From a virus: DNA of 64,000 nucleotides. The DNA lies in IMG/VR virus record IMGVR_UViG_3300050016_000100, positions 1-64,000 of that record, one strand, 5' to 3'. The position numbers and the translations under genes were made by a program. The notes beneath the pieces were generated by a model. That model was not told where the DNA came from. It did no database searches and saw only the letters and a program-made list of their open reading frames with translations. Shown here piece by piece: positions 10,683-63,755 of this stretch; the stretch's first letter is position 1, and the number at the start of each line of letters is the position of its first letter.

Positions 10683-10720
10683 GGCCGCCGGTTCTTAGAA
10701 GGCTCCGGCGGCCTTTTTTT
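10683..10720 (+). terminator. Rho-independent terminator of the lysis block
   Basis: GGCCGCCGG (10683-10691) pairs with CCGGCGGCC (10705-10713) around a 13-nt loop and is followed by seven T. It lies between the last rightward lysis gene and the convergent leftward operon, so it stops rightward transcription. No matching A-run on the left side, so it is not a good leftward terminator. Confidence 0.85.
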
Positions 10721-10722
10721 GT

Positions 10723-37599: not shown

Positions 37600-37788
37600 A
37601 TGAGCACCATAGCGAGGCAGACTGGACCGCCGGCAGCGGCGTCACTGCTGCGACCTATTTGGCGGGCGTTCTGCATCTGGCGATCTCGCCGGGCTGCTGC
37701 CCGCGCCGTACGGGCGATGCACCGATGGAATCACCGCCGCGCAGCCCGTAACATTATCCTCGCATCGAAGTGGGAGCGCCGCGCATGA
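37600..37788 (+). CDS. Small Arg-rich protein
   Basis: 62 aa from ATG 37600, MSTIARQTGPPAAASLLRPI then many Arg/Ala/Trp. The stop shares ATGA with the next gene's start, supporting translation. Composition is close to a random high-GC frame, so this is tentative. The stretch 37443-37599 shows no convincing gene. Confidence 0.35.
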   Translation: MSTIARQTGPPAAASLLRPIWRAFCIWRSRRAAARAVRAMHRWNHRRAARNIILASKWERRA

Positions 37789-37985
37789 CCGTCCGATGTT
37801 GGAAGCACAACATCGACATGGTCGTCGTGCGGCTCGATCACGGTAATCCAGTCCACCATTGTTCGGAGTGTGTGCGGATCGCACGCGAGAAGGTCGACGC
37901 CGTCTGCGCGGCATTTAGGGCGAAGGCGGGAAGATCCCGGCTCGGCGTTCGTCTTGCGGTTGACCAGAAACGACGAGCCTTGTAG
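37785..37985 (+). CDS. Small metal-binding-like protein
   Basis: 66 aa from ATG 37785 with GGGAG upstream. CWKHNIDMVVV then HHCSECVRIAREK gives Cys/His pairs that could bind zinc. Basic C-terminal end. Lies just before the NusG-like gene; function unknown. Confidence 0.45.
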   Translation: MTVRCWKHNIDMVVVRLDHGNPVHHCSECVRIAREKVDAVCAAFRAKAGRSRLGVRLAVDQKRRAL

Positions 37986-38082: not shown

Positions 38083-38622
38083 ATGGCCGACGATGCCCTC
38101 CGCTGGTACGCCGCCCGCGCCAAGCCTGGGCACGAGCGTGTCGCAATGGTGAATCTCGCGCGCCAAGACTTCCCCGCCTATTATCCGCAGATCACTATCG
38201 AGCGGCGCCGGCGCGACCGAATCGTGAACGACACCGAACCGCTTTTCCCTGGCTATATCCTGATCCAGTTCGAGCTCGCGGTGGGCGCGTGGAAAGCGAT
38301 CAACGGAACGCGTGGGATAATTCGGCTGCTAGGTTTCGGCGACGAGGGCACGCCATCGCCGCTTCCGATCGGTGAGATCGAGCGGCTCCAGGACCGCGAA
38401 ACATCCGGATCGCTGTGCGTTTCCGAGGTGGTGCGCATCAGCCGCGACGACGTCTGCCGGATCAAGTTCGGTAATGCCGTGGACAAGATCGGACCGGTGC
38501 TGCGCACCCGCGGCGAGCGGATCACGCTGCTTTTAGATTTACTCGGGCGCAAAGTTCCTGTAACGGTGCCAATGCACGCTCTCGAGGTTGTCCATCGGGC
38601 CGATTCACGCCCGATGCGGTAG
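38083..38622 (+). CDS. NusG/RfaH-like transcription elongation factor
   Basis: Start at ATG 38083 (MADDALRWYAARAKPGHERV); the longer frame upstream is shadow. 179 aa. RWYAARAKPGHERVAMVNL, FPAYYPQITIERR, DTEPLFPGYILIQFEL and GTRGIIRLLGF follow in the order of the NusG N-terminal domain; the C-terminal part (VGNAVDKIGPVLRTRGERI-type strands) resembles a KOW domain. It is a phage-coded specialised NusG paralog, immediately upstream of the late genes, fitting an antitermination role. Confidence 0.75.
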   Translation: MADDALRWYAARAKPGHERVAMVNLARQDFPAYYPQITIERRRRDRIVNDTEPLFPGYILIQFELAVGAWKAINGTRGIIRLLGFGDEGTPSPLPIGEIERLQDRETSGSLCVSEVVRISRDDVCRIKFGNAVDKIGPVLRTRGERITLLLDLLGRKVPVTVPMHALEVVHRADSRPMR

Positions 38623-38946
38623 CCACTGACCGGAGAGAATCCAATGCGCTAAGGAAACGCGCGCGGCGTAGGGCGAGAAGGGCCATGCCCAAGTCCGCGA
38701 ATCATCTGAAGTGATTCATCGTCGCGCGCATCCTTCGGGGCCGGAACTAATAAGGCACTTTTAAGTGCTTTTTAAGTGCGAGTGCCGCGCCCACGAGTCC
38801 GAGAACATCCACCTACCCCCAAAACACACCTACGCAGTCGGGGTCAGCCATCTCGACGGCGTGGACGCGTCCCGTCCTCGGAACCGTCGCCCCCCGATGG
38901 GCGGGACGCACTTGAAAACTATTCGGAACAAAAGTAGCTTCGTGCA
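38623..38946. promoter_or_regulatory. Structured non-coding region before the terminase genes
   Basis: No convincing gene. It holds three inverted repeats: GAATCA...TGATTC (38699-38717), GCACTT-TT-AAGTGC (38755-38768) followed by TTTTT and a further AAGTGC, and GCGTCCCG...CGGGACGC (38867-38909). A promoter-like TTGAAA, 17 bp, TAGCTT ends 7 bp before the next gene. Could contain the late promoter, a packaging site, or the recruitment site for the NusG-like protein. Confidence 0.45.
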
Positions 38947-39417
38947 ATGCCACGAGCAGTTAAGGGCCAAAGGTTCGGCGGGCGCCTGAAGGGCGTGCCG
39001 AACAAAGCGACTATCGAGAGGGCGCTTCTCGCTGAGCGCGCGATTGCTGAGGCGAAGGCCAATGCGAAGCCGCTCGCGCGAGAAGTCCTCGATCAGTTCA
39101 TGCAGCTTTTCGCCGGGATGGCAGCGCATCACCAGCCGATGCCGGCAGGCCAGATGGCGCCACCGGATCGGAATCCGGATGAGACGAAGTTCGAGAAGTG
39201 GGCGCGGCTCGCCGTTCAATGCGCGAAGGACCTCGCGCCTTACCAGAGCCCGACGTTCCGCGCGATTGTGGTGGCGCCGACGCCTGAAAGCCCGAGGGGC
39301 AAGATCACGCGGTTTACGCTCGAGATATTTGATCGCACCGGACGCGGGCCGATCAAAGGGGCGAATGGCGCAGCCGGTAATGGAAAGGTGATCGAGCACG
39401 AGGCTGACGCATGGTGA
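38947..39417 (+). CDS. Putative small terminase or packaging protein
   Basis: 156 aa. MPRAVKGQRFGGRLKGVPNK is a basic Gly-rich start as in small phage packaging proteins; helical body (IERALLAERAIAEAKAN), and a beta-rich C-terminus. It lies two genes upstream of the large terminase. No classical helix-turn-helix is clear. No ribosome site is visible upstream. Confidence 0.5.
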   Translation: MPRAVKGQRFGGRLKGVPNKATIERALLAERAIAEAKANAKPLAREVLDQFMQLFAGMAAHHQPMPAGQMAPPDRNPDETKFEKWARLAVQCAKDLAPYQSPTFRAIVVAPTPESPRGKITRFTLEIFDRTGRGPIKGANGAAGNGKVIEHEADAW

Positions 39418-39746
39418 ATTGGCAGTTTGAGATCGGCAAGCAAGTCGTCTGCATCAAAAAAGATGGCGACTGGACATGGGAGCCGCCCGAGATCGCGGCT
39501 GGATGTCGAGGGCCACTCCACGGCGATGTGCTGACGATCCGATCCATCAAGAATCATGAGCTCGGCGCGATCGGCATCGCTTTACAATTCTATGAGATCG
39601 TCAATCCGCCAGTGAAGTATTTGAACGGCGATCACGAGTGTCTATTTGACGCCGTTTACTTTCGACCTGTGAGGCGCACGGACATCTCCGAACTCCGCAA
39701 GCTGACGGTTCCGCGGCCGTCGGTGCGAGTGGCGGAGGACGCATAG
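39411..39746 (+). CDS. Hypothetical protein, paralog of 14116-14445
   Basis: 111 aa. IGKQVVCIKKDG, ALQFYEIVNPPV and VYFRPVRRTDISELRKL correspond in order to the protein at 14116-14445. Beta-rich N-terminus of SH3-like look. Overlaps the packaging gene by 7 bp and the terminase by 1 bp. Function unknown. Confidence 0.55.
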   Translation: MVNWQFEIGKQVVCIKKDGDWTWEPPEIAAGCRGPLHGDVLTIRSIKNHELGAIGIALQFYEIVNPPVKYLNGDHECLFDAVYFRPVRRTDISELRKLTVPRPSVRVAEDA

Positions 39747-41005
39747 TGGCCATTGCTGCGGACGAGCATCTGCTCAAATACAGCCGGCCGTTCCTTTACC
39801 CGAAACAGCGGGCCGCAATCTTCGACGCCAGGCGTTATTCGATCACCGAAGCATCGACAAAGTCCGGTAAGACTTCGGGTGCAATCGTCTGGATCACCGA
39901 GATGGCATTCGCTGGCTGTGCCGGGTGGAATTACTGGTGGGTTGCACCGGTCAGCGGCCAGGCCGACATCGCCTTCCGCCGATGCTTGCGCGCGATCCCG
40001 CGCGAGCTCGCGACACCGAACATCACGCTCAAGACGATCACGCTCGTCAACGGCGCGATCATCTGGTTCAAGTCCGGCGACAAGCCCGACTCGCTCTACG
40101 GCGAGGACGTCTACGCCGCCGTAGTCGACGAGGCCTCCCGCACGAAGGAGGATGCGTGGTACGCGCTGCGTACAACGCTGACCGCCACGCGCGGGCCGGT
40201 CCGGATCATCGGCAACGTCAAGGGGCGCCGGAACTGGTTCTTTCAGATGGCGCGGCGGGCAGAGGCCGGAGCGCCCGACATGGGCTACCATAAGCTGGTC
40301 GCGGCTGACGCTATCGAAGCCGGCGTTCTCGATGCCGACGAGGTCGAAGACGCGCGGCGCAATTTGCCGGACCGGGTGTTCCGCGAACTCTATCTCGCCG
40401 AGCCATCGGATGACGAAGGCAACCCGTTCGGCCTTGCGGCCATCGCCGAGTGCATACAGCCACTTCAACCTGGCGTTCCTACCGTATGGGGGTGGGACCT
40501 CGCGAAGCACGTCGACTGGACCGTGGGCATCGCGTTCGACAAGCAAGGGCAGACCTGCCGGTTCGATCGTTTTCAGATGCCGTGGGACGAGACGATGACG
40601 AGAATCCACGCCGCGACCGGCCGCACCCCGGCGCTGGTGGATTCCACCGGTGTCGGCGATCCGATTGTCGAGATGCTGCAGAAGAAACCAGGATCGAAGT
40701 TCGAGGGCTACGGCTTCACCGGCCCATCGAAGCAGAAACTAATGGAAGGCCTGGCGGTCGCGATCCAATCGAAGTCGATCACGTTTCCGGCCGGACCGAT
40801 CACCCTCGAGCTCGAGCAATTCGAATATGAATACACCAAGACCGGCGTGCGCTATGGTGCGCCGGAGGGTTTTCACGATGACTGCGTCTGCGCGCTCGCG
40901 CTCGCGGTCATGCACAAGGGACACGCGCGGATGCCGATGAAGATCAGCAACGAAGCCATCGCGCGCGCCCACCGCGGCGGTTTGCGTGGAGCGCTGCGAC
41001 CGTGA
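39746..41005 (+). CDS. terL: Terminase large subunit
   Basis: 419 aa from GTG 39746. Walker A is STKSGKT (residues 37-43), Walker B is VYAAVVDEAS (122-131), and the C-terminal nuclease part has TVWGWDLAKHVDWTVGIAFD and EGFHDDCVCALALA with the metal-binding Asp residues. It cuts concatemeric DNA and pumps it into the prohead. Shorter than many TerL proteins but complete in motifs. Confidence 0.9.
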   Translation: MAIAADEHLLKYSRPFLYPKQRAAIFDARRYSITEASTKSGKTSGAIVWITEMAFAGCAGWNYWWVAPVSGQADIAFRRCLRAIPRELATPNITLKTITLVNGAIIWFKSGDKPDSLYGEDVYAAVVDEASRTKEDAWYALRTTLTATRGPVRIIGNVKGRRNWFFQMARRAEAGAPDMGYHKLVAADAIEAGVLDADEVEDARRNLPDRVFRELYLAEPSDDEGNPFGLAAIAECIQPLQPGVPTVWGWDLAKHVDWTVGIAFDKQGQTCRFDRFQMPWDETMTRIHAATGRTPALVDSTGVGDPIVEMLQKKPGSKFEGYGFTGPSKQKLMEGLAVAIQSKSITFPAGPITLELEQFEYEYTKTGVRYGAPEGFHDDCVCALALAVMHKGHARMPMKISNEAIARAHRGGLRGALRP

Positions 41006-42591
41006 AACGCAAGAACGTCGAGCAGCTGGTATTCGATGTCGTGGCGAAGATCGACGCCAAACGCGAAAAGGCTGCGCCGGCATCGGAGCCCGCGCCAGTA
41101 AAGGCCGCGCGCAAGCCGGTCAAGATCGGCGACATCGCGCTCGGTCGCGCCAAGGCGAATCGTCGTCGCGCCATCAATCCGTTCATCCTGGCGAACCATC
41201 CGCCGAGCGTCTTTCCTAAGGGCGTCAAGCCCACGATGGCGCAGGATAAGGCGATTAACGATTCGCTGGACTGGGCGGCACAGTCGATTCAGTCCGGGTT
41301 ATTCGAGGAAGGGCTCGCGTTCCTGGGTTACCCGTACCTGGCCGAGCTCGCGCAGCGGGCGGAGTATCGCGTCATCAGCGAGACGCTCGCGACCGAGGCC
41401 ACGCGCAAGTGGATTAAGATCGAGGCCGCCGGCGATACCGACAAGACCGATGAGATCAAGGCGATCGAGGCCGAGTTCGTCCGGCTCAAGGTCCAGGACA
41501 TATTCCGCGAAATATCGGAACAGGACGGATTCTTCGGTCGCAGCCATCTCTACATCGACACGGGCGAGGGCGACGATCGCAAGGAACTCATCACGCCGAT
41601 CGGTGACGGTCGCAATGACGTCACCACGGCGAAGTTCAAGAAGGGATCGCTTACTCGACTCAAGGCAGTCGAGCCGGTGTGGTGCTACCCGGCCCGGTAC
41701 AATTCGAACGATCCGCTCGCGGTCGACTGGTACAAGCCCGAGTCGTGGTTCGTGATGGGCAAGGAACTCCACGCCTCGCGCCTGCTGACATTCGTCGGTC
41801 GCGAGGTGCCGGACATGCTCAAGCCGGCGTATTCGTTCGGCGGTCTGTCAATGTCGCAGATGGCGAAGCCTACCGTCGACAACTGGCTTCGCACACGGGC
41901 GAGCGTTTCGGACCTCATCAAAGCGTTCTCGGTGATGGTGATATCGACCGATATGAGCGAGGTCCTATCTGGTGGTGGCGATGAGTTCTTCAGGCGCCTC
42001 GATTTTTTCAATGCGAACCGCGACAACAACGGCATCATGGCGGTTAACAAGGATTCCGAGGAACTCACAAACGTTTCGGCCCCGCTCGGCACGCTCGACA
42101 CTCTTCAGGCGCAATCGCAGGAGCACATGGCGTCGGTGAGCCGAACGCCTATCGTCAAGCTGCTCGGTATCCAGCCGGCGGGCCTGAATGCGTCGTCGGA
42201 AGGCGAGATCAAGACCTGGGACGACTGGGTTGCGGCCTACCAGCAGCGTTTCTTCCTCGAGCCGCTCACCCGGATTCTTGGGTTCGCGCAGATGAACTTG
42301 TACGGCAAGGTCGATCCGGACATCACAATCGCATTCGAACCGCTCAGGCAGATGACCGAGAAGGAGATCGGCGAGATCGACAAGGCCGAGGCCGAGGCGG
42401 ACCAGATTCGCATCGACACCGGGGTGATCTCGGCCGAGGAAGCGCGCAGGGCGCTCGCGGCGAAGGAAGACTCTCGTTATGCCGGCATCGACGTCGAAGA
42501 CGTCCCGGACCTCAAGGAAGAGGAAGCCGAGGGTCTCCAGCCGAAAGGCCAGAAAGGCTCCGGCGGTGAGGGCGGAGACGATGGCGATTAA
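41002..42591 (+). CDS. Portal protein (DUF1073-like)
   Basis: 529 aa, GTG start overlapping terL by 4 bp. LGYPYLAELAQRAEYRVISE, KLKAVEPVWCYPARYN-type strands and TPIVKLLGIQPAGLNASSEG are characteristic of the DUF1073 portal family; SSEGEIKTWDDWVAAYQQRF is a clear landmark. N-terminal 70 residues are extra and basic. Forms the ring through which DNA enters and leaves the head. Confidence 0.85.
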   Translation: MKRKNVEQLVFDVVAKIDAKREKAAPASEPAPVKAARKPVKIGDIALGRAKANRRRAINPFILANHPPSVFPKGVKPTMAQDKAINDSLDWAAQSIQSGLFEEGLAFLGYPYLAELAQRAEYRVISETLATEATRKWIKIEAAGDTDKTDEIKAIEAEFVRLKVQDIFREISEQDGFFGRSHLYIDTGEGDDRKELITPIGDGRNDVTTAKFKKGSLTRLKAVEPVWCYPARYNSNDPLAVDWYKPESWFVMGKELHASRLLTFVGREVPDMLKPAYSFGGLSMSQMAKPTVDNWLRTRASVSDLIKAFSVMVISTDMSEVLSGGGDEFFRRLDFFNANRDNNGIMAVNKDSEELTNVSAPLGTLDTLQAQSQEHMASVSRTPIVKLLGIQPAGLNASSEGEIKTWDDWVAAYQQRFFLEPLTRILGFAQMNLYGKVDPDITIAFEPLRQMTEKEIGEIDKAEAEADQIRIDTGVISAEEARRALAAKEDSRYAGIDVEDVPDLKEEEAEGLQPKGQKGSGGEGGDDGD

Positions 42592-43468
42592 ACTCCGCGA
42601 ACCAGACCTTAACGACATGTATCAGCGGCCCTATATGGCGCCGCGCCCGGCCACCGCACCGATCGCCAAGGACGCCGCCCCGCGAAAGAAGGGGGCAACC
42701 GTTCTTCCTTCGGTCCAGCCGAACGTCGGCATCGAGGCAGCCTACCGCAGGCGCATGTATGCGCTGATCGAGGCGATGCACAACTCGATCATCTATTGGA
42801 TCAAGGCAGCCTACAAAAAGAACGCGCCGGCGATCGCCCAGGATACTGCGGCCGACGAGCTGCGGATCGCCATGCGCAAGCTCGCGCGGCAGTGGCGCAA
42901 GAACTTCGATGAGGCAGCCCCGGAGCTCGCCGATTACTTCGCGACGGAAGCGTCTGAGCGGTCAGATGGCTCGCTGCGGTCAATCCTGCGGCGGGCCGGC
43001 ATGTCGGTCAGGTTCAAGATGACGGCCGCAGCGCGCGACATAATGGACGCGACGATCAATGCGCAGGTTGGGCTGATCCGGTCGATCTCGCAGGAATACC
43101 TCACCGCCGTCGAGGGCATCGTCATGCGATCGGTCCAGACCGGGGGCGATCTCGGGCAGCTATCGCAGGATTTACAGGCGCAGTTCGGCGTTACGAAACG
43201 CCGCGCCGCGCTGATCGCGCGCCACCAGAACAACATGGCGACGTCCGCAATGACCCGCGCGCGCCAGCAGGAGCTCGGGCTCAATACCGCCCGCTGGCGG
43301 CATAGCCACGCTGGCAAGGAACCCCGCCCGACGCACGTTGCTATGGACGGGAAGACCTATGACGTGCGAAAGGGAATGTGGGACCCCGCGGAAGGGCGCC
43401 GCGTGTGGCCGGGCGAACTAATAAACTGCCGATGCACGTCGCAGACGGTGGTGCCGGGATTCGGATAA
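42581..43468 (+). CDS. Head morphogenesis protein (SPP1 gp7 / Mu F-like)
   Basis: Start at ATG 42581, overlapping the portal gene by 11 bp. 295 aa. The C-terminal half has the family signature: TKRRAALIARHQNNMATSAM, RWRHSHAGKEPRPTHVAMDG, WPGELINCRCTSQTVVPGF with the conserved NCRC. Such proteins ride with the portal into the prohead. Confidence 0.85.
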   Translation: MAIKLREPDLNDMYQRPYMAPRPATAPIAKDAAPRKKGATVLPSVQPNVGIEAAYRRRMYALIEAMHNSIIYWIKAAYKKNAPAIAQDTAADELRIAMRKLARQWRKNFDEAAPELADYFATEASERSDGSLRSILRRAGMSVRFKMTAAARDIMDATINAQVGLIRSISQEYLTAVEGIVMRSVQTGGDLGQLSQDLQAQFGVTKRRAALIARHQNNMATSAMTRARQQELGLNTARWRHSHAGKEPRPTHVAMDGKTYDVRKGMWDPAEGRRVWPGELINCRCTSQTVVPGFG

Positions 43469-43819
43469 ATGCCTACGCTGCGAACGCTCGACGCGACCTT
43501 CATCAAACACGAAGTGCGGGACGGTCACGACTATCACGTTCACGTCGACCGGATCGAAGACGCCCAGGGCGTCCAGTTCCTATGCCCGAAGTGTTTCGTG
43601 GCTAATGGCGGCGCTGTCGGCACCCACCAGGTCATCTGCTGGTCGCGCAGCCGCGGTGTGCCTGACGAGGTCCGCCCGCAGCCCGGTAGGTGGAAGATCG
43701 ACGGCACCAGCATCGATGACCTGACCCTGAACGCCGATCCGCCGGCGACGCAGCGATCAGTTGCGATCACTGGCGGGTGTGGGTGGCACGGCCACGTCAC
43801 GAACGGAGCCGCAGAATGA
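43469..43819 (+). CDS. DUF6527-like conserved phage protein
   Basis: 116 aa. FLCPKCFVANGG, HQVICWSRSRGVPD and RWKIDGTSIDDLTL, then SVAITGGCGWHGHV: the Cys/His pattern of DUF6527-type phage proteins found in the head gene region. Probably zinc-binding and beta-rich. Function unknown. Confidence 0.6.
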   Translation: MPTLRTLDATFIKHEVRDGHDYHVHVDRIEDAQGVQFLCPKCFVANGGAVGTHQVICWSRSRGVPDEVRPQPGRWKIDGTSIDDLTLNADPPATQRSVAITGGCGWHGHVTNGAAE

Positions 43820-44007
43820 TGGCGCGCATGATCATCGATCAGAATGGCTACTTCGCCGCTCCGCCGGCACTCATCGGCGCAACCGACGCGGAGATCGTCG
43901 CCATGTACGAAAACAGGCTGCCGGCTGATCGCGCGACTGTGATCGCCAACGGTCTTCTGAGCGCTGCGATCGCGCTCAACAACACGCAACCCGCAGGACG
44001 ATGCTGA
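43816..44007 (+). CDS. Small hypothetical protein
   Basis: 63 aa starting ATGATG over the previous stop. IIDQNGYFAAPPALIGATDAE followed by a helical part, and a single Cys at the end. Lies 1 bp before the Nudix-protease gene. Function unknown. Confidence 0.45.
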   Translation: MMARMIIDQNGYFAAPPALIGATDAEIVAMYENRLPADRATVIANGLLSAAIALNNTQPAGRC

Positions 44008-44008
44008 C

Positions 44009-45970
44009 GTGACGACGATTGCGACTGACCCTCCAGTATCTGAGAAACAGCGCCGCGCGATGTTCGCCGCACGCGAGGGCCGCAGCACGCTGGGGATTCC
44101 GAAGAAGGTCGGCGAGGAGTTCGTCGGTAGCAAGGACGCCAAGCCCGCGGCTGGGGTCGCCATCACCGGCCCAGGAAACACGGCGCTGTTCCTGAAGCGG
44201 GCGCGCACTGCCGATCATCCGGGCGAATGGTGCTGGCCTGGTGGCGGCATCGAGGCAGGAGAGAAGCCGGAGGATGCGGCCCGCCGCGAGACCGCCGAGG
44301 AAACCGGATATAAACTGAACGGCATCAAGCCAATTCATCGCGCGATCAGCGACGATGGCGTCGACTTCACGACCTTTCACCAAGACGTCGGCGAACATTT
44401 CGTCCCGAAGGTCAATGACGAACATGCCGGATGGGCGTGGGCGTCGATGAGCGACCCGCCGCAGCCGCTTCACCCAGGCGTCAAGGCGATGCTCGAGAAG
44501 GTTACGAAGGACGCGGACGTGCGTGCCCATGATCAGGCACTCGCCCTCGATCGCTCGTCGGTCCGGTCATACGATAAGGATGGCCGGATGCGCGTCGAAC
44601 GCGCGCACATCAGTAAGGCGAACGTCTGCCCGTATAACGGCAGCGAGATCCCGGATTACGAGGCGCTCGGTCTCGATCCGAACAAAGTCTACCAGCTATT
44701 CCGCGATCCGGACGAGCTCGCCAAGGCGGCGCCGACGTTCAACGGAATCCAGCTCCTGCTCAAACACGTCCCGGTCAACGCGGACGATCACCAGCCAGAC
44801 CTGGTCGTCGGCACGACGGCGACCGGCGCGGAGTTCAATGCTCCGTACCTCGACAATGGTCTCATCGTCTGGGTGCGTGAAGGCATCGATGCAATCGAAT
44901 CCGAGAAGCAGAAGGAACTGTCCAGCGCGTATCGCTACCGCGCCGACATGACGCCGGGCGCCTATCAAGGCGTCCCCTACGATGGCGTCATGCGGGACAT
45001 CGTCGGAAACCACGTAGCGCTCGTAGAAGAAGGCAGAGCCGGGGCCGATGTGGTCGTCGGCGATGCCGCCACCCAAAAACTAGAGGAGCTATTCATGACG
45101 AAGCCTGTCGTGCTGTCACGCAAGGCGGCGATGGTTCAGGGGGCGCTCGCCGTCTACCTGAAGCCGAAGCTCGCCAACGACGCGAAGATCGACCTGGTGC
45201 CGACGCTCAAGGATCTCACCAGTAAGAACTTCGCGGAAAAGAAACCGGGGGTCATCACCAGCCTGAAGGAGATCACAAAGGACAAGCTCGCAAAGGACGC
45301 GAGCCTCGACGATGTGACCGGCCTGCTCGACGCGCTCGAGAAGGCTGAGATGGCCGAAGGCGATGCGACCGAGCCGAACTCCGGGCTTCCGCTTGTCGGC
45401 GGCAAGAAGGACGAGACGATGGACGCTGCCACCGAGTTCCTGAAGGGCAAGCTCTCATCCGACGACTTTTCCAAGTTCGAGGAGATGTCGAAGGAGAAGA
45501 AGGCTGGCGACGCGACCGAGACCCCTGAGGAAAAGGCGGCGCGCGAGGCCAAGGACAAGGCAGCGAAGGATGCCGCCGACAAAAAGGCGAAGGACGAGGC
45601 CGAAGCCGAGAAGGACAAGCCGACGAAAGCCGGCATGGACGCGGCGATCGCCAAGGCGACCCAGGACACCGAAGCACGCGTACTCAAGACCCAGCGCGAT
45701 CTCCGGGAAGCCGAGGAAGCCGTCCGACCCTACGTCGGCAAGCTCGCCATCGCGCACGATAGCGCCGAGTCGGTCTACCGCACCGCGCTCACGACTCTCG
45801 GCGTCGACAAGGCGGACGTCGAAGGGCTCGCCATTGGCGGCCTGAAGGCGATCCTCAAGCAGATGCCGTTGGCCGATGCCAAGGACAAGAAGCCGATCGC
45901 GATGGATGCGTCGGCACTCAAAGACTTCAGCGCGCGTTATCCCGACGCCGCGAAAATCACGCTCGGATAA
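44009..45970 (+). CDS. Nudix domain - DUF2213 prohead protease-like - scaffold fusion
   Basis: 653 aa, GTG start. Residues 79-101 form an exact Nudix box (GGIEAGEKPEDAARRETAEE). Residues about 175-355 resemble DUF2213 (RVERAHISKANVCPYNGSEI, PDYEALGL, FNGIQLLLKHVPV and GNHVALVEEGRAGADVVV), a family considered prohead-protease-like, with a conserved His and Ser-type region. Residues 390-653 are Lys/Glu/Ala coiled coil, like a scaffolding protein. So one chain could hydrolyse nucleotides, cut capsid proteins and scaffold the shell. The Nudix fusion is unusual. Confidence 0.7.
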   Translation: MTTIATDPPVSEKQRRAMFAAREGRSTLGIPKKVGEEFVGSKDAKPAAGVAITGPGNTALFLKRARTADHPGEWCWPGGGIEAGEKPEDAARRETAEETGYKLNGIKPIHRAISDDGVDFTTFHQDVGEHFVPKVNDEHAGWAWASMSDPPQPLHPGVKAMLEKVTKDADVRAHDQALALDRSSVRSYDKDGRMRVERAHISKANVCPYNGSEIPDYEALGLDPNKVYQLFRDPDELAKAAPTFNGIQLLLKHVPVNADDHQPDLVVGTTATGAEFNAPYLDNGLIVWVREGIDAIESEKQKELSSAYRYRADMTPGAYQGVPYDGVMRDIVGNHVALVEEGRAGADVVVGDAATQKLEELFMTKPVVLSRKAAMVQGALAVYLKPKLANDAKIDLVPTLKDLTSKNFAEKKPGVITSLKEITKDKLAKDASLDDVTGLLDALEKAEMAEGDATEPNSGLPLVGGKKDETMDAATEFLKGKLSSDDFSKFEEMSKEKKAGDATETPEEKAAREAKDKAAKDAADKKAKDEAEAEKDKPTKAGMDAAIAKATQDTEARVLKTQRDLREAEEAVRPYVGKLAIAHDSAESVYRTALTTLGVDKADVEGLAIGGLKAILKQMPLADAKDKKPIAMDASALKDFSARYPDAAKITLG

Positions 45971-45982
45971 GGAGAGACCCTC

Positions 45983-46939
45983 ATGGGTGACTTTCAGAAG
46001 CAAGTGAACGCGAACCAGGCTCCCGCGGTTGCGGGCGACTACGCCAGTTCGAATCCGCGATCCTCGGTTCTTGCCGGGGCTGGCGGACTCGTCGCCGGCG
46101 CCCCCGGCGTGACCGTCGGCCGATTCGCATGGCTGAGCTATGCGACGAGCGACAACGACAATGCTCCGGCAACCGTCTTCAGCTTTGGTTCCGGACCCGT
46201 TGCAGGCATCGTGCCGCGGAAGCAGCAGGCGCTGATCACGAAGTACCTCGCCTCGGCGAGTAACGTCATCGCCCCGGGCTTCGGCATGTGGCTCGATAGC
46301 TCCGGCGACTTCTGGATGCAAAATGACGGCATCACACCGGCGCTGATCGGCCAGAAGGCGTTCGCGAACTATGCGGACGGCAAGGCCATCTTCGCCGCCG
46401 CAGGCGCCACGCCCGCGACCGCGTCGGTCACCGGCACCGTTGCCGGCCAGACCGCGTCGGTCACCGGATCGATCCTGGGCAATCTGCTCACGGTCAGCGC
46501 GGTCGGCTCCGGTTCACTCGTTCCAGGTGCAGTCCTTGCTTCCGGTACGGCGGTCGCTACCGGCACGAAGATCGTGCAGCAGATGTCCGGCACCATCGGC
46601 GGCGTCGGCACTTACCTGGTCGACATTCCGAACCAGAACACCACACCTAACCTGACGATCACGGCCGCCTATGGCCTGCTGACTGTCTCGGCCGTCGGTT
46701 CGGGTGCTCTTGACGTTGGCGATGTCCTCGCGTCCGGAACTGCCATCACTGCCGGCACGGTCATCACCGGCCTCGGCACTGGCACCGGCCTCACCGGCAC
46801 TTACTACGTCAGCCAGGCGACCGACTCGACGCCTGGAATCACCATCACCGCCGCGCGCGCCATCGAGACCAAGTGGTACGCGAGGTCAGCCGGGCTCCCG
46901 GGCGAGCTCGTCAAGATTTCCTCACAGCCGCTCGGCTAA
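45983..46939 (+). CDS. Head decoration/cement-like protein with two inserted beta domains
   Basis: 318 aa with AAGGAGAGACC upstream. The N-terminal 150 residues (VGRFAWLSYATSDNDNAPATVF) and final ETKWYARSAGLPGELVKIS resemble phage structural cement proteins. Inserted between them are two copies of a Gly/Thr/Val domain (about 162-217 and 231-287) with the pattern GSILGNLLTVSAVGSG ... GTYLVD. The same domain type occurs in the proteins at 57946 and 58687. Confidence 0.6.
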   Translation: MGDFQKQVNANQAPAVAGDYASSNPRSSVLAGAGGLVAGAPGVTVGRFAWLSYATSDNDNAPATVFSFGSGPVAGIVPRKQQALITKYLASASNVIAPGFGMWLDSSGDFWMQNDGITPALIGQKAFANYADGKAIFAAAGATPATASVTGTVAGQTASVTGSILGNLLTVSAVGSGSLVPGAVLASGTAVATGTKIVQQMSGTIGGVGTYLVDIPNQNTTPNLTITAAYGLLTVSAVGSGALDVGDVLASGTAITAGTVITGLGTGTGLTGTYYVSQATDSTPGITITAARAIETKWYARSAGLPGELVKISSQPLG

Positions 46940-46953
46940 AGGAGCAACGCATC

Positions 46954-48045
46954 ATGAACCGACAAGAAGCAATGCAGGCTTGGGGCGCGGACTCCGCGCA
47001 CCTGGCCGCCCGTGGGTTGGTCCTTCTGGACGCGAAGTCGTATATCCCGGACGAGTTCCGGCACGACTTTGCGCTCGCGATGGACGCGCAACCTGCGCTC
47101 GCGACATCGGCGAACGCCGGCATCCCGGCTTATCTGACGATGTTCGTCGATCCGGAGCAGGTCAAAATCCTGTTCTCTCCGACCAACGCCGCGAAAATTA
47201 TCGGCGAAATGAAGAAGGGCACGTGGCTCGACGAAACCGCGATATTCACGGTGATCGAACACACCGGCGAGGTGACCAGCTACGGCGACTACGCCGAGGG
47301 TGGCAGTTCCGGTGTCAACACCAACTTCCCGCAGCGCCAATCGTATCTATTCCAGACGATGAAGCGCTACGGCGAGCGTGAGCTCGAACGCGCTGGTCTC
47401 GCCCGCCTCAACTATGTGAGCGAGATCGACGTCGCGGCGTCGATGAGCCTGAACAGGCTTGCCAACCTCTCCTACTTCTTCGGTATTGACGGCCTGCAGA
47501 ACTATGGGCTGATCAACGACCCGAACCTGTCGGCGGCGATCACCCCGGCGACGAAGTCGAACGGCGGCACCGGCTGGTTCACGACCGGCGGCGGCGTCAA
47601 CGCGACGGCGAACGAGGTCTACAACGACATCGTCGCGATGTTCAAACTGCTGGTCGATCAGTCCGGTGGCAACCTCGACAAGGAAGCGAGTTGCGTCCTA
47701 GCGATGTCGCCCGACTCGGCACTCGCCCTGCAGTTCACGAACACCTTCAACGTCAACGTGGAGGATCTGCTGAAGAAGAACTTCAAGAACCTCCGCCTCC
47801 AGACCGCCGTGCAGTACGGCGCCACGTCGGCGACCAACCCGCAGGGCGTCGCCGCCGGCAATCTCGTTCAGCTGATCGCTGAGAACGTGGAAGGCCAGAA
47901 AACCGGCACCTGCGCGTTCAACGAAAAGATGCGCTCGCATCCGATCATCCGGGCGACCTCGTCCTTCCAACAGAAGGCAACCGCGGGAACCTTCGGGGCC
48001 GTGATCAAGCAGCCCTTCGCGTTCGCGCAAATGGTGGGAGTGTAA
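46954..48045 (+). CDS. Major capsid protein (DUF2184-like)
   Basis: Start at ATG 46954 with AAAGGAG upstream. 363 aa. AYLTMFVDPEQVKILFSPTN, KRYGERELERAGLARLNYVS and the C-terminal SHPIIRATSSFQQKATAGTFGAV are features of the DUF2184 capsid family. Position right after protease/scaffold and cement genes supports the call. Forms the icosahedral shell with an HK97-like fold. Confidence 0.85.
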   Translation: MNRQEAMQAWGADSAHLAARGLVLLDAKSYIPDEFRHDFALAMDAQPALATSANAGIPAYLTMFVDPEQVKILFSPTNAAKIIGEMKKGTWLDETAIFTVIEHTGEVTSYGDYAEGGSSGVNTNFPQRQSYLFQTMKRYGERELERAGLARLNYVSEIDVAASMSLNRLANLSYFFGIDGLQNYGLINDPNLSAAITPATKSNGGTGWFTTGGGVNATANEVYNDIVAMFKLLVDQSGGNLDKEASCVLAMSPDSALALQFTNTFNVNVEDLLKKNFKNLRLQTAVQYGATSATNPQGVAAGNLVQLIAENVEGQKTGTCAFNEKMRSHPIIRATSSFQQKATAGTFGAVIKQPFAFAQMVGV

Positions 48046-48051
48046 GATCCA

Positions 48052-48582
48052 ATGGCTGATAAGCAGAAGCAGAACGTCAAGACCGCGGGGGCCGTAGCGG
48101 CTCCCGCGATCGCGGCAGCGAAAGCGACCAAGACTGTCACCGTCGCGTGCAAGATGCCGAGCGGCCTCCTGCTCCGCATCTTCAAGATGGTCGACCAATC
48201 CGTCCAGGTCATGGGCGGCGGCAGCCGCATCGAGAAGCAGGCCGAACAGATCGGCAAGGCCGTAAAGATCAACGGCTACGCCAGCCCGTTCGGTAAGGCG
48301 CCGAAGCACACCGTCCTCGAGCAGACCTACGGCGGCTACGGGCTCACGCCCGGAGTCGACGCGGAGTTCTTCGCCAAGTGGATGCACGACAATGCGGAGA
48401 GCGATCTGGTGAAGAACAGGATCGTATTCGCGGCGTCCGACTCGGATCGAGTCGAAGCTGAAGCGGATGACTACAAGAAGGAATGGGACGGGATGCACCC
48501 GATCACGCCCGACACCGACAAACGCATCCCACGCGGTGTCAAGACCGCCGACGAACAGAAGAAACCACAGGCGGCGGCCTGA
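48052..48582 (+). CDS. Conserved head-region protein
   Basis: 176 aa. N-terminus basic/Ala-rich, then PSGLLLRIFKMVDQSVQVMG, and HTVLEQTYGGYGLTPGVDAEF. Acidic-basic C-terminal tail. Found in this position in relatives as a structural protein; exact role unknown. Confidence 0.5.
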   Translation: MADKQKQNVKTAGAVAAPAIAAAKATKTVTVACKMPSGLLLRIFKMVDQSVQVMGGGSRIEKQAEQIGKAVKINGYASPFGKAPKHTVLEQTYGGYGLTPGVDAEFFAKWMHDNAESDLVKNRIVFAASDSDRVEAEADDYKKEWDGMHPITPDTDKRIPRGVKTADEQKKPQAAA

Positions 48583-48586
48583 TCCG

Positions 48587-49039
48587 ATGGGCGCCGTCGC
48601 CACCTTCGACTATGCGGCATGGCTCGCGCGCTATCCTGAGTTCGGCCCGAGCGGGCAGCAGCCCGTCTCGGCCGACCAGGCGGCGATGTATTTCGCGGAG
48701 GCAACGGACAATCATCGCAACGACGGATTCGGGCCCGTCGAAGATGCGACCACGCAGCTTCGGCTACTGAATATGCTGACCGCACACATCGCGGTCCGCA
48801 ACGCAGCAAACGCTAATGGATCTCCGGCATCCGGGCTGGTCGGGCGAATCTCGTCCGCGACCGAGGGCTCGGTATCGGTATCAACCGATGCTCCGGGGAT
48901 TCCCGCATCGGCGGCATGGTTAGCGCAGACCAAATATGGACTAGACTACTGGAACGCGACGAAGTCGTACCGGACGGCCCGCTATCGCGCGCGCCCGACG
49001 AGGGTCATCAACGGCCCCTACCCGTTTTTTAGGCAGTAG
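48587..49039 (+). CDS. Head-tail connector protein (DUF4054-like)
   Basis: Start at ATG 48587. 150 aa. MGAVATFDYAAWLARYPEF, then AAMYFAEATDNHRN, and LRLLNMLTAHIAVRNAAN are typical of the DUF4054 connector family. Likely sits at the neck between portal and tail. Confidence 0.7.
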   Translation: MGAVATFDYAAWLARYPEFGPSGQQPVSADQAAMYFAEATDNHRNDGFGPVEDATTQLRLLNMLTAHIAVRNAANANGSPASGLVGRISSATEGSVSVSTDAPGIPASAAWLAQTKYGLDYWNATKSYRTARYRARPTRVINGPYPFFRQ

Positions 49040-49041
49040 CC

Positions 49042-49491
49042 GTGGCGAGGTTCAAGGGCGGCGCGAAACTCACTGCCGCGCTGCGCGAGCTGGCGGAGAA
49101 GGTCACGAAACCCGGCACGCTCCGCGTCGGGTTCCTCGAAGGCGCGACCTATCTGGACACCACGCCGGTCGCGATGATCGCGGCGATCCAGAACTGGGGA
49201 GCGCCGAAGGCCAACATCCCGCCGCGACCGTTTTTCTCGAACATGGTCCGCGACAAGAGTCCGGGATGGGGAAAAGCCGTCGAGACGAACTTGAAGGACA
49301 CCGGGTACGACGCTACGGTGGCGCTCAAGCGAGTCGGTAAAGGAATTGCGGGACAGCTGCGACAATCAATCCTCGATACGACCACCCCGCCGCTTAAGCC
49401 GGCGACGGTCCGTCGAAAAGGATTCGACAAGCCGCTGGAAGATACCGGCCACATGCTCAACAGAGTAAACTTCGAAGTTAAGGGCGACTGA
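49042..49491 (+). CDS. Neck/tail-completion protein (HK97 gp10-like)
   Basis: 149 aa, GTG start. The family landmark is IQNWGAPKANIPPRPFF, followed by helices and PLKPATVRRKG near the end. Proteins of this type complete the neck or tail. The sugar cassette begins 4 bp after it, so the cassette splits the neck gene series. Confidence 0.65.
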   Translation: MARFKGGAKLTAALRELAEKVTKPGTLRVGFLEGATYLDTTPVAMIAAIQNWGAPKANIPPRPFFSNMVRDKSPGWGKAVETNLKDTGYDATVALKRVGKGIAGQLRQSILDTTTPPLKPATVRRKGFDKPLEDTGHMLNRVNFEVKGD

Positions 49492-49494
49492 CCG

Positions 49495-50715
49495 ATGCGA
49501 GGAATCTACGCCAGCCTCCCGATATGGGGGGGCGCGCACGTCGCGCTCTGGAGCCGCTATGCGCTTCCGGCCATGCTGGCGCCAGGCAATCTGCCGGCGA
49601 TCTCGCGGATCGCGCCGACGACGGTGCTGATCTACACGAACGCGATGGACAGGAACGTTATTGAGGCGCTTCCCGAGTTTAACGACCTGATGGACGTCTG
49701 CGCGGTATCGTTCGTCATCATCGGCGTCGACGCGAACGAAATGGTGGAGCTCCTTCACCCCCAGGCCCGCCACGGTGGAACCTGCTACAAAAATTGTCAG
49801 AACATGGCAATCAAGCGCGCGTGGGAGGACGACTGCGGCAACGTCTTTATGACCGCCGACACGATCTGGTCGAACAACGGCGCGGCCAAGATCGAGGAGG
49901 CGCTCGCCGCAGAGAAACGCGGACTCGTACACGTCGGCTATTGCACGGGCGGGCGGGCACTCACGGCGAATCCGGATGCGCTCGGCCGCGAGATGGCGGC
50001 GTGGGCGGCCGATGCAACACCGCTCGAGATGTCGCGGCGCTTCCTGCGCGCAAGCGGCGGCGGGGCGCTGCCGCCATCGATCACGGAGCCGAAGTTCGGA
50101 CGTAACCCGTCGAACCTACGATGGTCGACGGGGGACGGGCGCGGGATGATGGTCCGGCCGATCCATCTCAACCTCAGCTTCGCGTACCCGCAGATGGGGC
50201 CGATCGCGATGAACCACGGCGTCGACCACGACTTCGCGAACCGGGCGTTCACCAGCCGGGACCAGCTGATGCTGATCCAGGACACGACCGAGTTCATGGT
50301 GCTCAGCATCGATACGCTCGGCGATAGCGCACCGGTCTATGATCCTGGGCAGGAGCCGGACTATCCGGACTACAGCCCGGAACTCGTGGCGGCCTACATG
50401 AAGGATTCGGCGTCGCCGTGGCAGCGGGAGTGGATGCGCGATTACTGGTGGTGCCACGATGGCACGCTTGCGCTTGACGACCCCGATCGCCAGCGCGTCG
50501 AACGCGAGAGCGATCTAGCGGTTGATGAGATGTTCGCTTGCTACAACCGCGCGGCCACCATTGCGTTCTGGGCGAATCGGCGGCAACAAGGATTGCCAAT
50601 GACTCACAGAACGGAAGTGGGACACAAGAAACACAGCGCGACTATGCGTGCGCGACATCAACTAGGGCGATCTCGCCCCAACCGCTCGGCGGTGATAGGA
50701 AGGGAGGTGGGTTGA
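49495..50715 (+). CDS. Glycosyltransferase-like protein
   Basis: 406 aa. N-terminal half has strand/helix alternation with VLIYTNAMDRNVIEALPE, VIIGVDANEMVELLHPQ and FMTADTIWSNNGAAKIEEAL, fitting a GT-A-type nucleotide-sugar fold with the DxD-like region unclear. The middle has HLNLSFAYPQMGPIAMNHGV-type sequence and FMVLSIDTLG. I recognise it as resembling large unnamed glycosyltransferase-like proteins in rhizobial surface-sugar clusters. First gene of the cassette. Last 40 residues are basic. Donor and acceptor unknown. Confidence 0.5.
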   Translation: MRGIYASLPIWGGAHVALWSRYALPAMLAPGNLPAISRIAPTTVLIYTNAMDRNVIEALPEFNDLMDVCAVSFVIIGVDANEMVELLHPQARHGGTCYKNCQNMAIKRAWEDDCGNVFMTADTIWSNNGAAKIEEALAAEKRGLVHVGYCTGGRALTANPDALGREMAAWAADATPLEMSRRFLRASGGGALPPSITEPKFGRNPSNLRWSTGDGRGMMVRPIHLNLSFAYPQMGPIAMNHGVDHDFANRAFTSRDQLMLIQDTTEFMVLSIDTLGDSAPVYDPGQEPDYPDYSPELVAAYMKDSASPWQREWMRDYWWCHDGTLALDDPDRQRVERESDLAVDEMFACYNRAATIAFWANRRQQGLPMTHRTEVGHKKHSATMRARHQLGRSRPNRSAVIGREVG

Positions 50716-50720
50716 CGGAA

Positions 50721-51648
50721 ATGAAGTTTCTCGTCAACCTTTGACCTCTTTAATCACAATGAGACCGGGCAGCGGTCGCTCGAGGACGTGGTCGGCATCT
50801 TCGGCCACCAGCTTCGCGCGCTCGGCCACAAGATCGTATGGGCGCCGGATAACAAAAAATGGCTTCCGCGCGATGCTGGTGTGAACATCATCGTCGAGGG
50901 GTTCTCGAAGGAAGCTGTTGCGTCGATTGCTAACGGTCACGCGCAGGGTGCGCGATTCTTGATCCTCGCGACGGAAGAGCCCACACCGAAGGGGTTCAAC
51001 CACGGCACGCAGGAAGAGATGGTCCGGCGCCAGGAGTTATTTCCGGAGGCCGCTAAGTATGCGGAGGGGATCCTTCACTTCGTTCCGGGCGACGCGGTCA
51101 CGCGCTGGTACGCGCAGTTCGCGCCGGCTGCGATGGTCGAGCTCGGCTACGCCGACACGCTTGTTCGCACTCCAGACAATAAGGAACCAGCCTACGACTT
51201 CGGTTTCTTCGGATCACTGTCGCCTCGCCGGCACAAGATTCTCAAGAAACTCGCGAAACGCATTGGCACCGTGAAGGCGGTCCGGATCGTCGCTGACTTT
51301 GCGACTCAGTTTGACCGCGATCAGGCCATGCGGGAGGCAAAGGTCATCGTCCAGATCAGGAAGTTCGATGAGATGGGGCTGGTCTCGTCGTCACGATGCA
51401 ACACTTCCCTGTGCATTGGGCGTCCGATCGTGGCGGAACCCCACTTGCTATCGAAGCCGTGGGACGAGATAGTGCGGTTCTCGACCACCCTAGACGGTTT
51501 CTACGATACGGCAATTATGATACGCGGAGCCTGGCGCGGCGTGCACGCGGATCAATTCGCCAAGTTTAAGCATCGGCTATCTCCCGAGCATTGCGTAGGC
51601 CGCGCGATGCGAGAGATCGGGTTCGACCTCGAAAGGTGTGCGGCGTGA
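50721..51648 (+). CDS. GT-B-like glycosyltransferase, split by a CTTTGAC frameshift site
   Basis: ATG 50721 (GGGAGG upstream) encodes MKFLVNL and then TGA. Skipping one base at CTT TGA C gives MKFLVNLDLFNHNETGQRSL and 300 more residues to the stop at 51648. The body has VGIFGHQLRALGHKIVWAPD, GFFGSLSPRRHKILKKLAK and AKVIVQIRKFDEMG ... SLCIGRPIVAEP, typical of CgeB-like GT-B glycosyltransferases. Either a programmed +1 shift (as in prfB), an indel, or a start at GTG 50788. The transferase call is stronger than the start. Confidence 0.55.
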
Positions 51649-51670
51649 AGTAATTCAAAGGGGCGCGACA

Positions 51671-52099
51671 ATGGCTGACACGGTACGGGCTCGGAAGTAT
51701 CTTCCGACGCTCTCTGACCTCATCGACCGGCTGACGATCGTCCAGCTGAAGGCAGTCTTTATCCCGGCGCACCGGGACGAATACGTCGCCGAACGCAAGC
51801 TGATTGAGCACGACATCGACCTGATCCTATCGAAACAGAAACGCCGCATGACGGCAGCCGACATCCATGCGATCGTTGTCATCATGCTCGCGAACCGATT
51901 CATCTGGGAAAACGAATCGAAGGCCAGGGCCGGTGGCAAGGAACAGGACAAGCTCCTGAAGCTCACGCACTCGATCAACGGTGTGCGCGCGGCGGCAAAG
52001 AACGCGCTCGCACGATTCGACGGTGGCCGGAAGGATTACAAGATCGATGCCTTGGCGGCTGACTTGCCTCCGGAGTTCGGGAACTGGAAGGTGTTCTAG
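51671..52099 (+). CDS. Small helical protein associated with glycosyltransferases
   Basis: 142 aa from ATG 51671. LPTLSDLIDRLTIVQLKAVF at the start recalls the [DE]LIDKLTI-type motif of DUF6165/DUF4254 proteins that travel with surface-sugar genes; this is from memory, not alignment. Helical throughout, with a Lys/Glu-rich middle. Could be a chaperone or small accessory of the cassette. Function unknown. Confidence 0.4.
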   Translation: MADTVRARKYLPTLSDLIDRLTIVQLKAVFIPAHRDEYVAERKLIEHDIDLILSKQKRRMTAADIHAIVVIMLANRFIWENESKARAGGKEQDKLLKLTHSINGVRAAAKNALARFDGGRKDYKIDALAADLPPEFGNWKVF

Positions 52100-52335
52100 T
52101 GACCGATGATCTCGAAACATTGATACGCAATAGGCAGAACGAATTGCGCGACCCGCGACGATTCACCCATCCGGTGATTGTTATCGACGAACGCTCGTTG
52201 ACAGAGCGAGTCGGCGACTGGATCGACGAACACGAATACGGATTGTTGAACTGGTCGATTGTGGCCACAGGCGCGGCTCTGATTCTCATTGTCGTCTGTC
52301 TGCTAGTAATGATCAGCGTCAGAGTTGTCAGTTGA
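52099..52335 (+). CDS. Single-span membrane protein
   Basis: 78 aa, GTG start overlapping the previous stop by one base. N-terminal 45 residues are charged (LRDPRRFTHPVIVIDERSLT), followed by one transmembrane helix (WSIVATGAALILIVVCLLVM). May anchor the pathway to the membrane; unproven. Confidence 0.5.
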   Translation: MTDDLETLIRNRQNELRDPRRFTHPVIVIDERSLTERVGDWIDEHEYGLLNWSIVATGAALILIVVCLLVMISVRVVS

Positions 52336-52943
52336 AGACGATCGACCTGATCTCCTTCGAGGCCGACATCGCGGAAGCGTTCAATCGCGGCGAGATACGC
52401 GCGCCGGTCCACCTTGCGGGCGGAAACGAGGAACAGCTCATCGAGATATTCGAGGGCGTTCGGCCGATTGACTGGGTCTGCTGCTCGTGGCGATCGCATT
52501 ACCACTGCCTGCTCAAAGGCGTCCCACCGGAACGGCTGAAGGCCGACATCATCGCGGGCCGGTCGATAACGCTGACCTATCCGGAATACAGGATCGTCTC
52601 GTCGGCAATCGTCGGCGGCGTCCTACCGATTGCGCTCGGCCTCGCCTGGTCTATCGCGCGGGCGGGCGGCGATGAGCGGGTATTCGTCTTCGCTGGCGAC
52701 ATGACGTCGCTCGGCGGCATGTACGCAGAATGTAAACGCTATGCCGAGGGGTTCAACCTGCCGGTATTCTTCGTCGTCGAGGATAACGGCATCTCGGTCT
52801 GCACGGATACGAAAGACACGTGGGGCGAGCGGACGACGGTCTCAAAGCCTGAGGGAGTGCGCGCCGCGAATGGTGCGACGATGAGGTATCGCTACGTGCT
52901 GCCGTGGCCCCATGCCGGAGCAGGGAAGCGAGTTCAGTTTTGA
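52332..52943 (+). CDS. TPP-dependent enzyme, alpha (TPP-binding) half
   Basis: 203 aa from TTG 52332, overlapping the previous stop. HYHCLLKGVPPERLKADIIA, SSAIVGGVLPIALGLAWSIA, then the thiamine-diphosphate motif AGDMTSLGGMYAECKRYAEG (Gly122-Asp123) ending in Asn152, the GDG-N site that binds Mg-TPP. This is the E1-alpha or transketolase N-terminal half, shorter than usual (E1-alpha about 300+). Paired with the next gene. It should make a carbanion for a two-carbon or acyl transfer; a sugar substrate is inferred from context. Confidence 0.7.
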   Translation: MKTIDLISFEADIAEAFNRGEIRAPVHLAGGNEEQLIEIFEGVRPIDWVCCSWRSHYHCLLKGVPPERLKADIIAGRSITLTYPEYRIVSSAIVGGVLPIALGLAWSIARAGGDERVFVFAGDMTSLGGMYAECKRYAEGFNLPVFFVVEDNGISVCTDTKDTWGERTTVSKPEGVRAANGATMRYRYVLPWPHAGAGKRVQF

Positions 52944-53461
52944 GCGCGTACTTCACCGAACTGTCACGCGCGATGGAGATGATCGGCTCCCACCCGCGCG
53001 CCGTGTTCATGGGCCAAGCGGTTGCCTGTGCCGGAACCGCAATGAGCCGAACACTTGCGGGCGTCCCGAAGAACAAGTTGATCGAGTTGCCCGTCGCTGA
53101 GGACATGCAGATGGGCATGGCGATCGGTGCAGCGATGAACGGCGATATGCCGGTGTGTATCTACCCGCGATTTAATTTTCTGCTGCTGGCGATGAGCCAG
53201 TTGGTGCTGCATCTCGATAAGCTGCCACTCTATTCCCGCTACCGGCCGCGCGTGATCATACGCACGGCGATCGCGACGCCGGACCCGCTCGATCCTGGAC
53301 CGCAGCACCTCGGCGACTATACCGAGGCGTTCGAACTGATGCTCACCACCGTCGTCGTGCGTAGGCTTGACGATGCCGCGCGGATCGTGCCGGAGTACAT
53401 GGACGCAACGCAGCGGTTGGAATCGACGCTGCTGGTCGAGCGGACGGAGCTCTACACATGA
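52940..53461 (+). CDS. TPP-dependent enzyme, beta (pyrimidine-binding) half
   Basis: 173 aa from TTG 52940, overlapping the alpha gene's stop by 4 bp (TTGA). IELPVAEDMQMGMAIGAAMN carries Glu54, which in E1-beta/transketolase proteins touches the pyrimidine of TPP. Then VCIYPRFNFLLLAMSQLVLH and QHLGDYTEAFELML resemble the Pyr domain. Needs the alpha half to act. A typical C-terminal third domain is missing, so the enzyme is a minimal heteromer. Confidence 0.65.
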   Translation: MSAYFTELSRAMEMIGSHPRAVFMGQAVACAGTAMSRTLAGVPKNKLIELPVAEDMQMGMAIGAAMNGDMPVCIYPRFNFLLLAMSQLVLHLDKLPLYSRYRPRVIIRTAIATPDPLDPGPQHLGDYTEAFELMLTTVVVRRLDDAARIVPEYMDATQRLESTLLVERTELYT

Positions 53462-57000: not shown

Positions 57001-57371
57001 ATCTACACGACATTGCGTCTGGCGCGATCGGTTCGGTCAACCCGACCGTGCTGGTAACGCTACAGCACAGCACCGGATCGACGACGGACGACGATGGCAA
57101 GCGGACCCCGACCTACGACACGACGACCGGGGTGCGCGCGCAAGTGCAGGCGCTGACGTTCACTGACCTGCACCAAATTGACGGGCTAAACCTGAACGGG
57201 ACTCGGCGTGCCATCTATCTATACGGCGCCGTCGCTGCTACGGTGCGCGCGAGCGGTCAGGGAGGCGACCTGATAACGCTACCAGACGGAAGCGTGTGGC
57301 TGGTCGCTTACGTCCTCGAACAGTGGCCTGATTGGTGCAAAGTAGTTTGCACCCTCCAGGACGGGTCATGA
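56997..57371 (+). CDS. Neck/tail structural protein
   Basis: 124 aa from GTG 56997, overlapping the radical SAM gene by 4 bp. NPTVLVTLQHSTGSTTDDDG, YDTTTGVRAQVQALTFTDL and a strand-rich end (LITLPDGSVWLVAYVLEQWP) suggest a head-tail joining protein. With the sugar genes removed it would follow the gp10-like gene, as expected for a neck series. Confidence 0.55.
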   Translation: MNLHDIASGAIGSVNPTVLVTLQHSTGSTTDDDGKRTPTYDTTTGVRAQVQALTFTDLHQIDGLNLNGTRRAIYLYGAVAATVRASGQGGDLITLPDGSVWLVAYVLEQWPDWCKVVCTLQDGS

Positions 57372-58674: not shown

Positions 58675-58686
58675 GGAACTAAAACC

Positions 58687-60432: not shown

Positions 60433-60448
60433 GGAAGGAACAAACATC

Positions 60449-60880: not shown

Positions 60881-60892
60881 GGAGGACGTTAG

Positions 60893-61503: not shown

Positions 61504-61507
61504 CGAC

Positions 61508-61714: not shown

Positions 61715-61726
61715 TAGAAAACCGTC

Positions 61727-63259: not shown

Positions 63260-63262
63260 CGC

Positions 63263-63754: not shown

Positions 63755-63755
63755 G

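Follow-up and report, generated by a model that had tools for sequence, protein, structure and literature searches.

A gene for a NusG-like protein was found ahead of the terminase genes in a 64-kb stretch (the window) of a linear IMG/VR virus record of 73,144 bp. Judged by its sequence, the protein is a specialised NusG paralog (NusG-SP), distinct from housekeeping NusG, and its gene heads a block of about 34 kb. The favoured reading, given a probability of roughly 0.6, is that the phage has adopted this paralog as an RfaH-like antiterminator of its late operon, loaded at an ops element. This reading is supported by the pre-terminase position of the gene, the NusG-SP ancestry of its product, an ops octamer and the ops-reading residues of the protein. 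Pausing, loading, antitermination and late timing are steps that we infer. The features of the region are as follows.

37785..37985, + strand: ORF of 66 amino acids with cysteine pairs, just 5' of nusG, a possible first gene of the unit; no match in a family search
38083..38622, + strand: nusG, encoding the specialised NusG paralog (NGN and KOW domains, 179 amino acids), from Pfam, PHROG, PDB, AlphaFold and Foldseek
38604..38608, + strand: TTCAC, at the spacing from the octamer seen in chromosomal TTTCACCC-N5-GCGGTAGC; suggestive only
38616..38623, + strand: GCGGTAGC, the octamer at the core of ops and a putative loading site; the nusG stop codon (TAG, 38620-38622) falls within it
38623-38946: intergenic gap of 324 bp, from the end of nusG to the start of the TerS-like ORF
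38752..38786, + strand: AT-rich hairpin GGCACTTTTAAGTGC with only three G-C pairs, followed by TTTTT; inferred from the sequence
38867..38909, + strand: 11-bp hairpin GCGTCCCGTCC...GGGCGGGACGC (local z -3.5, longest-arm p 0.08); 37 nt separate its end from the start of TerS
38947..39417, + strand: TerS-like ORF opening the late block, assigned from its position and from homologous genes in the same place in L008, L013 and L014
39411..39746, + strand: small ORF between the TerS-like ORF and TerL; no family match in Pfam and PHROG searches
39746..41005, + strand: terminase large subunit, TerL (phrog_2, E=8e-32)
41002..64000, and in the record onward to about 72.6 kb, + strand: remainder of the late block, with portal, head, protease, major head, sugar, sheath and tape-measure genes

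The main ORFs from 38083 to the end of this block are on the + strand, portal, head, sheath and tape-measure genes among them, and the late block longer than 25 kb of the preliminary description was borne out. The virus is contractile-tailed, as seen from the tail sheath and tape-measure genes in the block. An aminotransferase gene, a nucleotide-sugar epimerase gene and a further ORF are located between the head and tail genes at about 53.5-57 kb (53458-57000). These sugar genes do lie in the late block as had been proposed, but with a GC content of about 0.59-0.62 they are not GC-poor. Similarly, the gap between nusG and the terminase was described nearly to its true length (325 bp), but TerL does not follow it directly, being preceded by the TerS-like ORF and the small ORF. 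No internal terminators above chance level were detected in the late block, and sigma70-type promoters were found at chance level only. Two N6/N4 DNA methyltransferase genes are located 5' of nusG (33863-35056 and 35680-36894). Elsewhere in the window, 10646-10728 on the + strand matched the alphaproteobacterial suhB/mmgR sRNA, terminator included (Rfam RF00519, 68.6 bits, E=5e-12). Sub-threshold matches to RF00519 were present in three TerL-related phage records (G315, G317 and G330), and several to many copies in the genomes of Methylobacterium and Methylorubrum that contain L119-L121.

The claim that 38083-38622 encodes a phage NusG paralog was confirmed. The product matched Pfam NusG (PF02357, E=1.2e-18) with 67.8 bits against a cutoff of 22.2, placing an NGN domain in the protein, and aligned over nearly its full length with phrog_6386, annotated as transcription antiterminator (E=7e-17). 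E. coli RfaH was the best solved relative in the PDB (E=2e-9). The structure prediction that had been suggested as a check gave an NGN domain and a beta-barrel KOW domain (AlphaFold, 16 aligned rows, pLDDT 88.5), and Foldseek searches with this model returned NusG and RfaH. The strict NCBIfam equivalog cutoffs for RfaH were missed (TIGR01955, 87.4 against 144.5 bits; PRK09014, 64.7 against 124 bits), as were those for LoaP (39.6 against 125 bits) and UpxY (41.2 against 100 bits).

An IMG/VR search with the single NusG protein found zero relatives, and the single-NusG alignment was too diverged for a pattern search. Relatives were reached via TerL. Among the TerL relatives, an iterated profile identified a NusG-like gene in 16 distinct lineages. 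Some of these are prophages, of Methylorubrum rhodesianum, Methylobacterium variabile and M. frigidaeris among others. In most of these lineages a single TerS-like gene separates nusG from TerL. When 39 viral records were searched over their whole length, seven NusG matches were obtained; all seven were on the same strand as TerL and 0.5-2.8 kb upstream of it, and no match was found elsewhere in these records. On the TerL tree the nusG trait was clustered yet patchy, with 9 changes against a mean of 14.7 after shuffling. The nearest TerL relatives of the window (L014, L047 and L071) are without a NusG gene and presumably manage without one. The nusG gene of Microcystis phage MaAM05 was rejected as a comparable case, since it is part of a bacteria-like secE-nusG-rplK-rplA cluster. 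One of the related lineages, L023, has a TerL gene (7956-10034) with an apparent in-frame, intein-like insert of about 250 residues between conserved parts.

The octamer at the end of nusG has a chance probability of about 0.01-0.02 when the window is taken by itself. GCGGTAGC was the commonest 8-mer within 400 bp 3' of 25 chromosomal paralog genes (10 of 25, none upstream). In 61 chromosomal loci it was present downstream in 20, and neither upstream nor reversed in any. Its context was mostly TTTCACCC-N5-GCGGTAGC, and two further loci had the variant GCGGCAGC with the same flank. The extended element, TTTCACCC-N5-GCGGTAGC-NTGG, was located 52-221 nt after the gene in the 20 octamer-bearing loci and the two variant loci among L144-L168 and L176-L211, and looks like a general loading element for alphaproteobacterial paralogs. 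In phages, GCGGYAGC adjoined nusG in 6 of the 16 lineages, against 0.36 expected and none on the reverse strand (P about 7e-7 from base composition), for a choice of regions, and of Y as the fifth base, that was made in part after inspection of the data and not fixed beforehand. It is located at the downstream end of nusG in the window, L031, L004 and L009, and just upstream in L024 and L048. With a narrower, downstream-only region the count was 4 of 16 phages (P 3e-4 at record-specific rates). The phages and the chromosomal loci share ancestry and are not independent samples. An exact octamer is missing from ten of the 16 phage lineages, and no excess was observed in 91 NusG-less relatives (3 forward, 7 reverse, 4 expected).

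At the target operon of the window, the match to the ops element is confined to the core octamer, and the pause flank is unmatched. Neither a 32-column nor a 15-column matrix of the chromosomal element picked out the window site (p 0.20), owing to differences in the flanks and in the pause dinucleotide. The flank-only score of TTCAC was matched by 7% of positions. GTGCTTTTT at 38765, which matches the 3' half of E. coli ops, was set aside, being about 140 nt from the octamer. Three other sequences are recorded here as observations. TTTCACCCGGAC, in the aminotransferase gene (54307-54323), reproduces the chromosomal flank consensus exactly, with the octamer missing, and is probably a chance match. 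AGTGCGGTAGCACT in L024 (6862-6875) is a perfect 5-bp hairpin with the ops GGTA loop, about 37 nt before the start of the phage nusG, and L031 has a similar sequence, GTGCGGCAGCAC, where its nusG ends.

Hairpins in the gap had been put forward as the loading element, with three inverted repeats regarded as special. Neither claim was supported. The gap has six inverted-repeat arms of at least 7 bp (G-U allowed), where dinucleotide shuffles give 3.9 (p 0.22), and the longest arm, 11 bp at 38867-38909, had a p of 0.08. The suggested comparison with relatives covered the leaders of nine other phages, and only L009 had a similar structure or stable hairpin. Since the nusG-TerS gap is moreover 14 nt in L024 and the two genes overlap in L023, the leader hairpins are not a conserved feature and were rejected as a conserved signal. 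An Rfam search of the leader returned no family. Blind motif searches 5' of nusG gave nothing exceeding shuffles; 3' of nusG, in six related leaders, a 14-mer scored 38.6 against a maximum of 34.7 in 12 shuffles, and overlaps the ops-like octamer in L004 and L009. The hairpin at 38752-38786 with its T run could be a weak terminator-like element or a leader attenuator.

Loading of a late antiterminator through an RNA hairpin, as for LoaP, or through a 5' leader upstream of nusG, as for UpxY, would make the octamer a chance occurrence. The signal would then be the hairpin at 38867-38909 or a GC-rich repeat just 5' of nusG. The folding of the whole gap is in keeping with this: the + strand was more stable than its own shuffles (z -3.3 to -3.6) and the reverse complement was not (-0.1), although z was also <= -3 in 5 of 120 stretches of 324 nt drawn at random from the record, of which one overlaps the gap. 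The distance of the hairpin from TerS is also close to that in L009 (35 nt), and in L024 and L048 the octamer precedes nusG instead of following it, while that of the window is weak when taken alone. However, the absence of such hairpins from most other leaders, the short or missing gaps in L024 and L023 and the strong ops enrichment across phages and chromosomes make this alternative unlikely. GCGGTAGC at 38616-38623, rather than the gap hairpins, is likely to be the loading site.

RfaH contacts the G4-A7 loop of ops via K10, H20, R23, Q24, T68 and N70-V75 (PMC5995543), and is held shut by E48, I93 and F130 (PMC7593976). Over eleven checked positions the RfaH residues are K H R Q E T N T R G I, against K N R Q E A N T R G I in the window protein. 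Thus nine of eleven residues are identical (K10, R23, Q24, E48, N70, T72, R73, G74 and I93), and H20 and T68 differ. The RfaH row was read from the PDB match, apart from its two leading residues, which were filled in. Q24 was present in all six phages with the octamer against 1 of 10 without it. In chromosomal loci, R73 was present in 10 of 22 with the octamer against 3 of 39 without. The pattern is not uniform, as K10 had the opposite trend in chromosomes (0 of 22 with the octamer against 12 of 39 without).

The autoinhibitory alpha-helical C-terminal domain of RfaH has no counterpart in the AlphaFold model. E48 and I93 are kept and F130 could not be placed, and the model has strands at 124-171 forming a KOW barrel (block pLDDT 92-96), so that RfaH-type fold-switching is not indicated. 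This open beta-barrel form would suit a host-directed factor that displaces host NusG in general and thereby blunts Rho-dependent silencing of the phage or reprograms host transcription, with no dedicated site. NusG paralogs are indeed known to compete for one surface of RNA polymerase (PMC6391919). Such a role would leave the fixed place before the terminase and the octamer enrichment unexplained, and was considered improbable.

The origin of the paralog was studied by searching 289 alphaproteobacterial genomes with the window protein. The best match was a NusG-SP with 38% identity (E=4e-29). The matching paralogs were mostly 32-40% identical to the window protein, and the housekeeping NusG, likely that of the host, 25%. 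The neighbours of 25 chromosomal paralogs include DegT aminotransferases, sugar-nucleotide dehydrogenases and epimerases, and glycosyltransferases, together with nine winged helix-turn-helix genes. These polysaccharide loci, and the aminotransferase and epimerase encoded by the phage, raise the question of whether nusG was captured as cargo along with genes for polysaccharides, to act on the sugar genes at 53-57 kb or on surface polysaccharide operons of the host and not on the virion genes. This was judged very improbable, given that the sugar genes come about 15 kb after nusG within the same co-directional block and that the linkage of nusG to the terminase is repeated in many phages.

On the NusG tree the window protein has a long branch and low identity to every relative, as a functionless, degenerate passenger might have, yet the intact frame, the confidently predicted fold and the conserved key residues and place make that explanation extremely improbable. 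The phage proteins are not monophyletic. A single phage clade was rejected with p 0.03 when all phage rows were used, and with p 0.065 for the core rows, without four aberrant rows. Because of this weaker second result, capture of NusG paralogs by phages on more than one occasion is suggested, not proven.

An RfaH-like, ops-loaded antiterminator would work in the following way. RNA polymerase transcribing nusG would pause at the octamer at the gene end, and the non-template strand of the paused complex would expose the GGTA loop. The NGN domain would read this loop and bind the clamp, displacing host NusG, and hence Rho too, from RNA polymerase. The paralog would then remain on the polymerase across the virion operon of about 34 kb. 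As the site falls within the final codons of nusG itself, the paralog would be made by early polymerases and carried by later ones. These results suggest that a bacterial switch for long operons was taken over by the virus, by which its late genes would be transcribed to the end. The preliminary description had foreseen a NusG-type late antiterminator loading at a special DNA element. That idea, of a putative antiterminator, gained support from the placement in diverged phages, the ancestry, the octamer and the residues, but hairpins as the element were not supported. A wider proposal is more tentative: alphaproteobacterial phages may have repeatedly recruited RfaH-like paralogs of their hosts plus the ops site as a late-gene switch, possibly a third route beside N- and Q-type proteins in which replacement of NusG, and not an added factor, provides processivity.

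To our knowledge, little is known of how late transcription is kept up in most phages outside the lambdoid group. If the proposal is true, a NusG paralog and a short DNA site can sustain it, and the alphaproteobacterial ops element would provide a sequence handle for the targets of uncharacterised NusG paralogs in phages and polysaccharide loci. Lambda Q and N and GafZ of the Caulobacter GTA likewise promote read-through by polymerase of a phage-type cluster (PMC11150451; PMC7171158), but none belongs to the NusG family; GafZ, which is bound at the promoter, is believed to cooperate with host NusG and not to replace it. Phage NusG homologs annotated as transcription antiterminators are known from PHROG 6386 and from RfaH/NusG proteins annotated in UniProt, such as A0A6J5MAV8; a description of their target, their loading site or a link to the late operon was not found. 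A one-sentence mention of rfaH-like genes on prophages exists (PMC7593976). In the literature searched, which covered few subscription papers and no supplements, neither a phage NusG paralog tied to a late operon nor, within the same limits, an ops element behind alphaproteobacterial paralog genes was found.

NusG paralogs are established as long-operon antiterminators with RfaH, LoaP and UpxY (PMC7819879). UpxY of Bacteroides and LoaP of Bacillus resemble the window protein in being encoded beside the long operon that they regulate (PMC7819879). They differ in their far weaker profile matches to it and in their loading mode, UpxY acting in the leader 5' of its own gene. The alphaproteobacterial NusG-SP proteins are the best relatives, and a third of the 61 loci have the octamer just 3' of the gene. 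In chromosomes, however, it is located well past the gene within the extended TTTCACCC flank, whereas in the window it overlaps the stop codon and has TTCAC only. E. coli RfaH shares the NGN and KOW domains, most of the checked residues and GCGGTAGC with the window system (PMC5995543), and is its closest solved structure. The window protein differs from RfaH by its scores under the NCBIfam cutoff, its predicted barrel and its pause flank, and by being encoded in a phage, beside its presumed target and before the virion genes.
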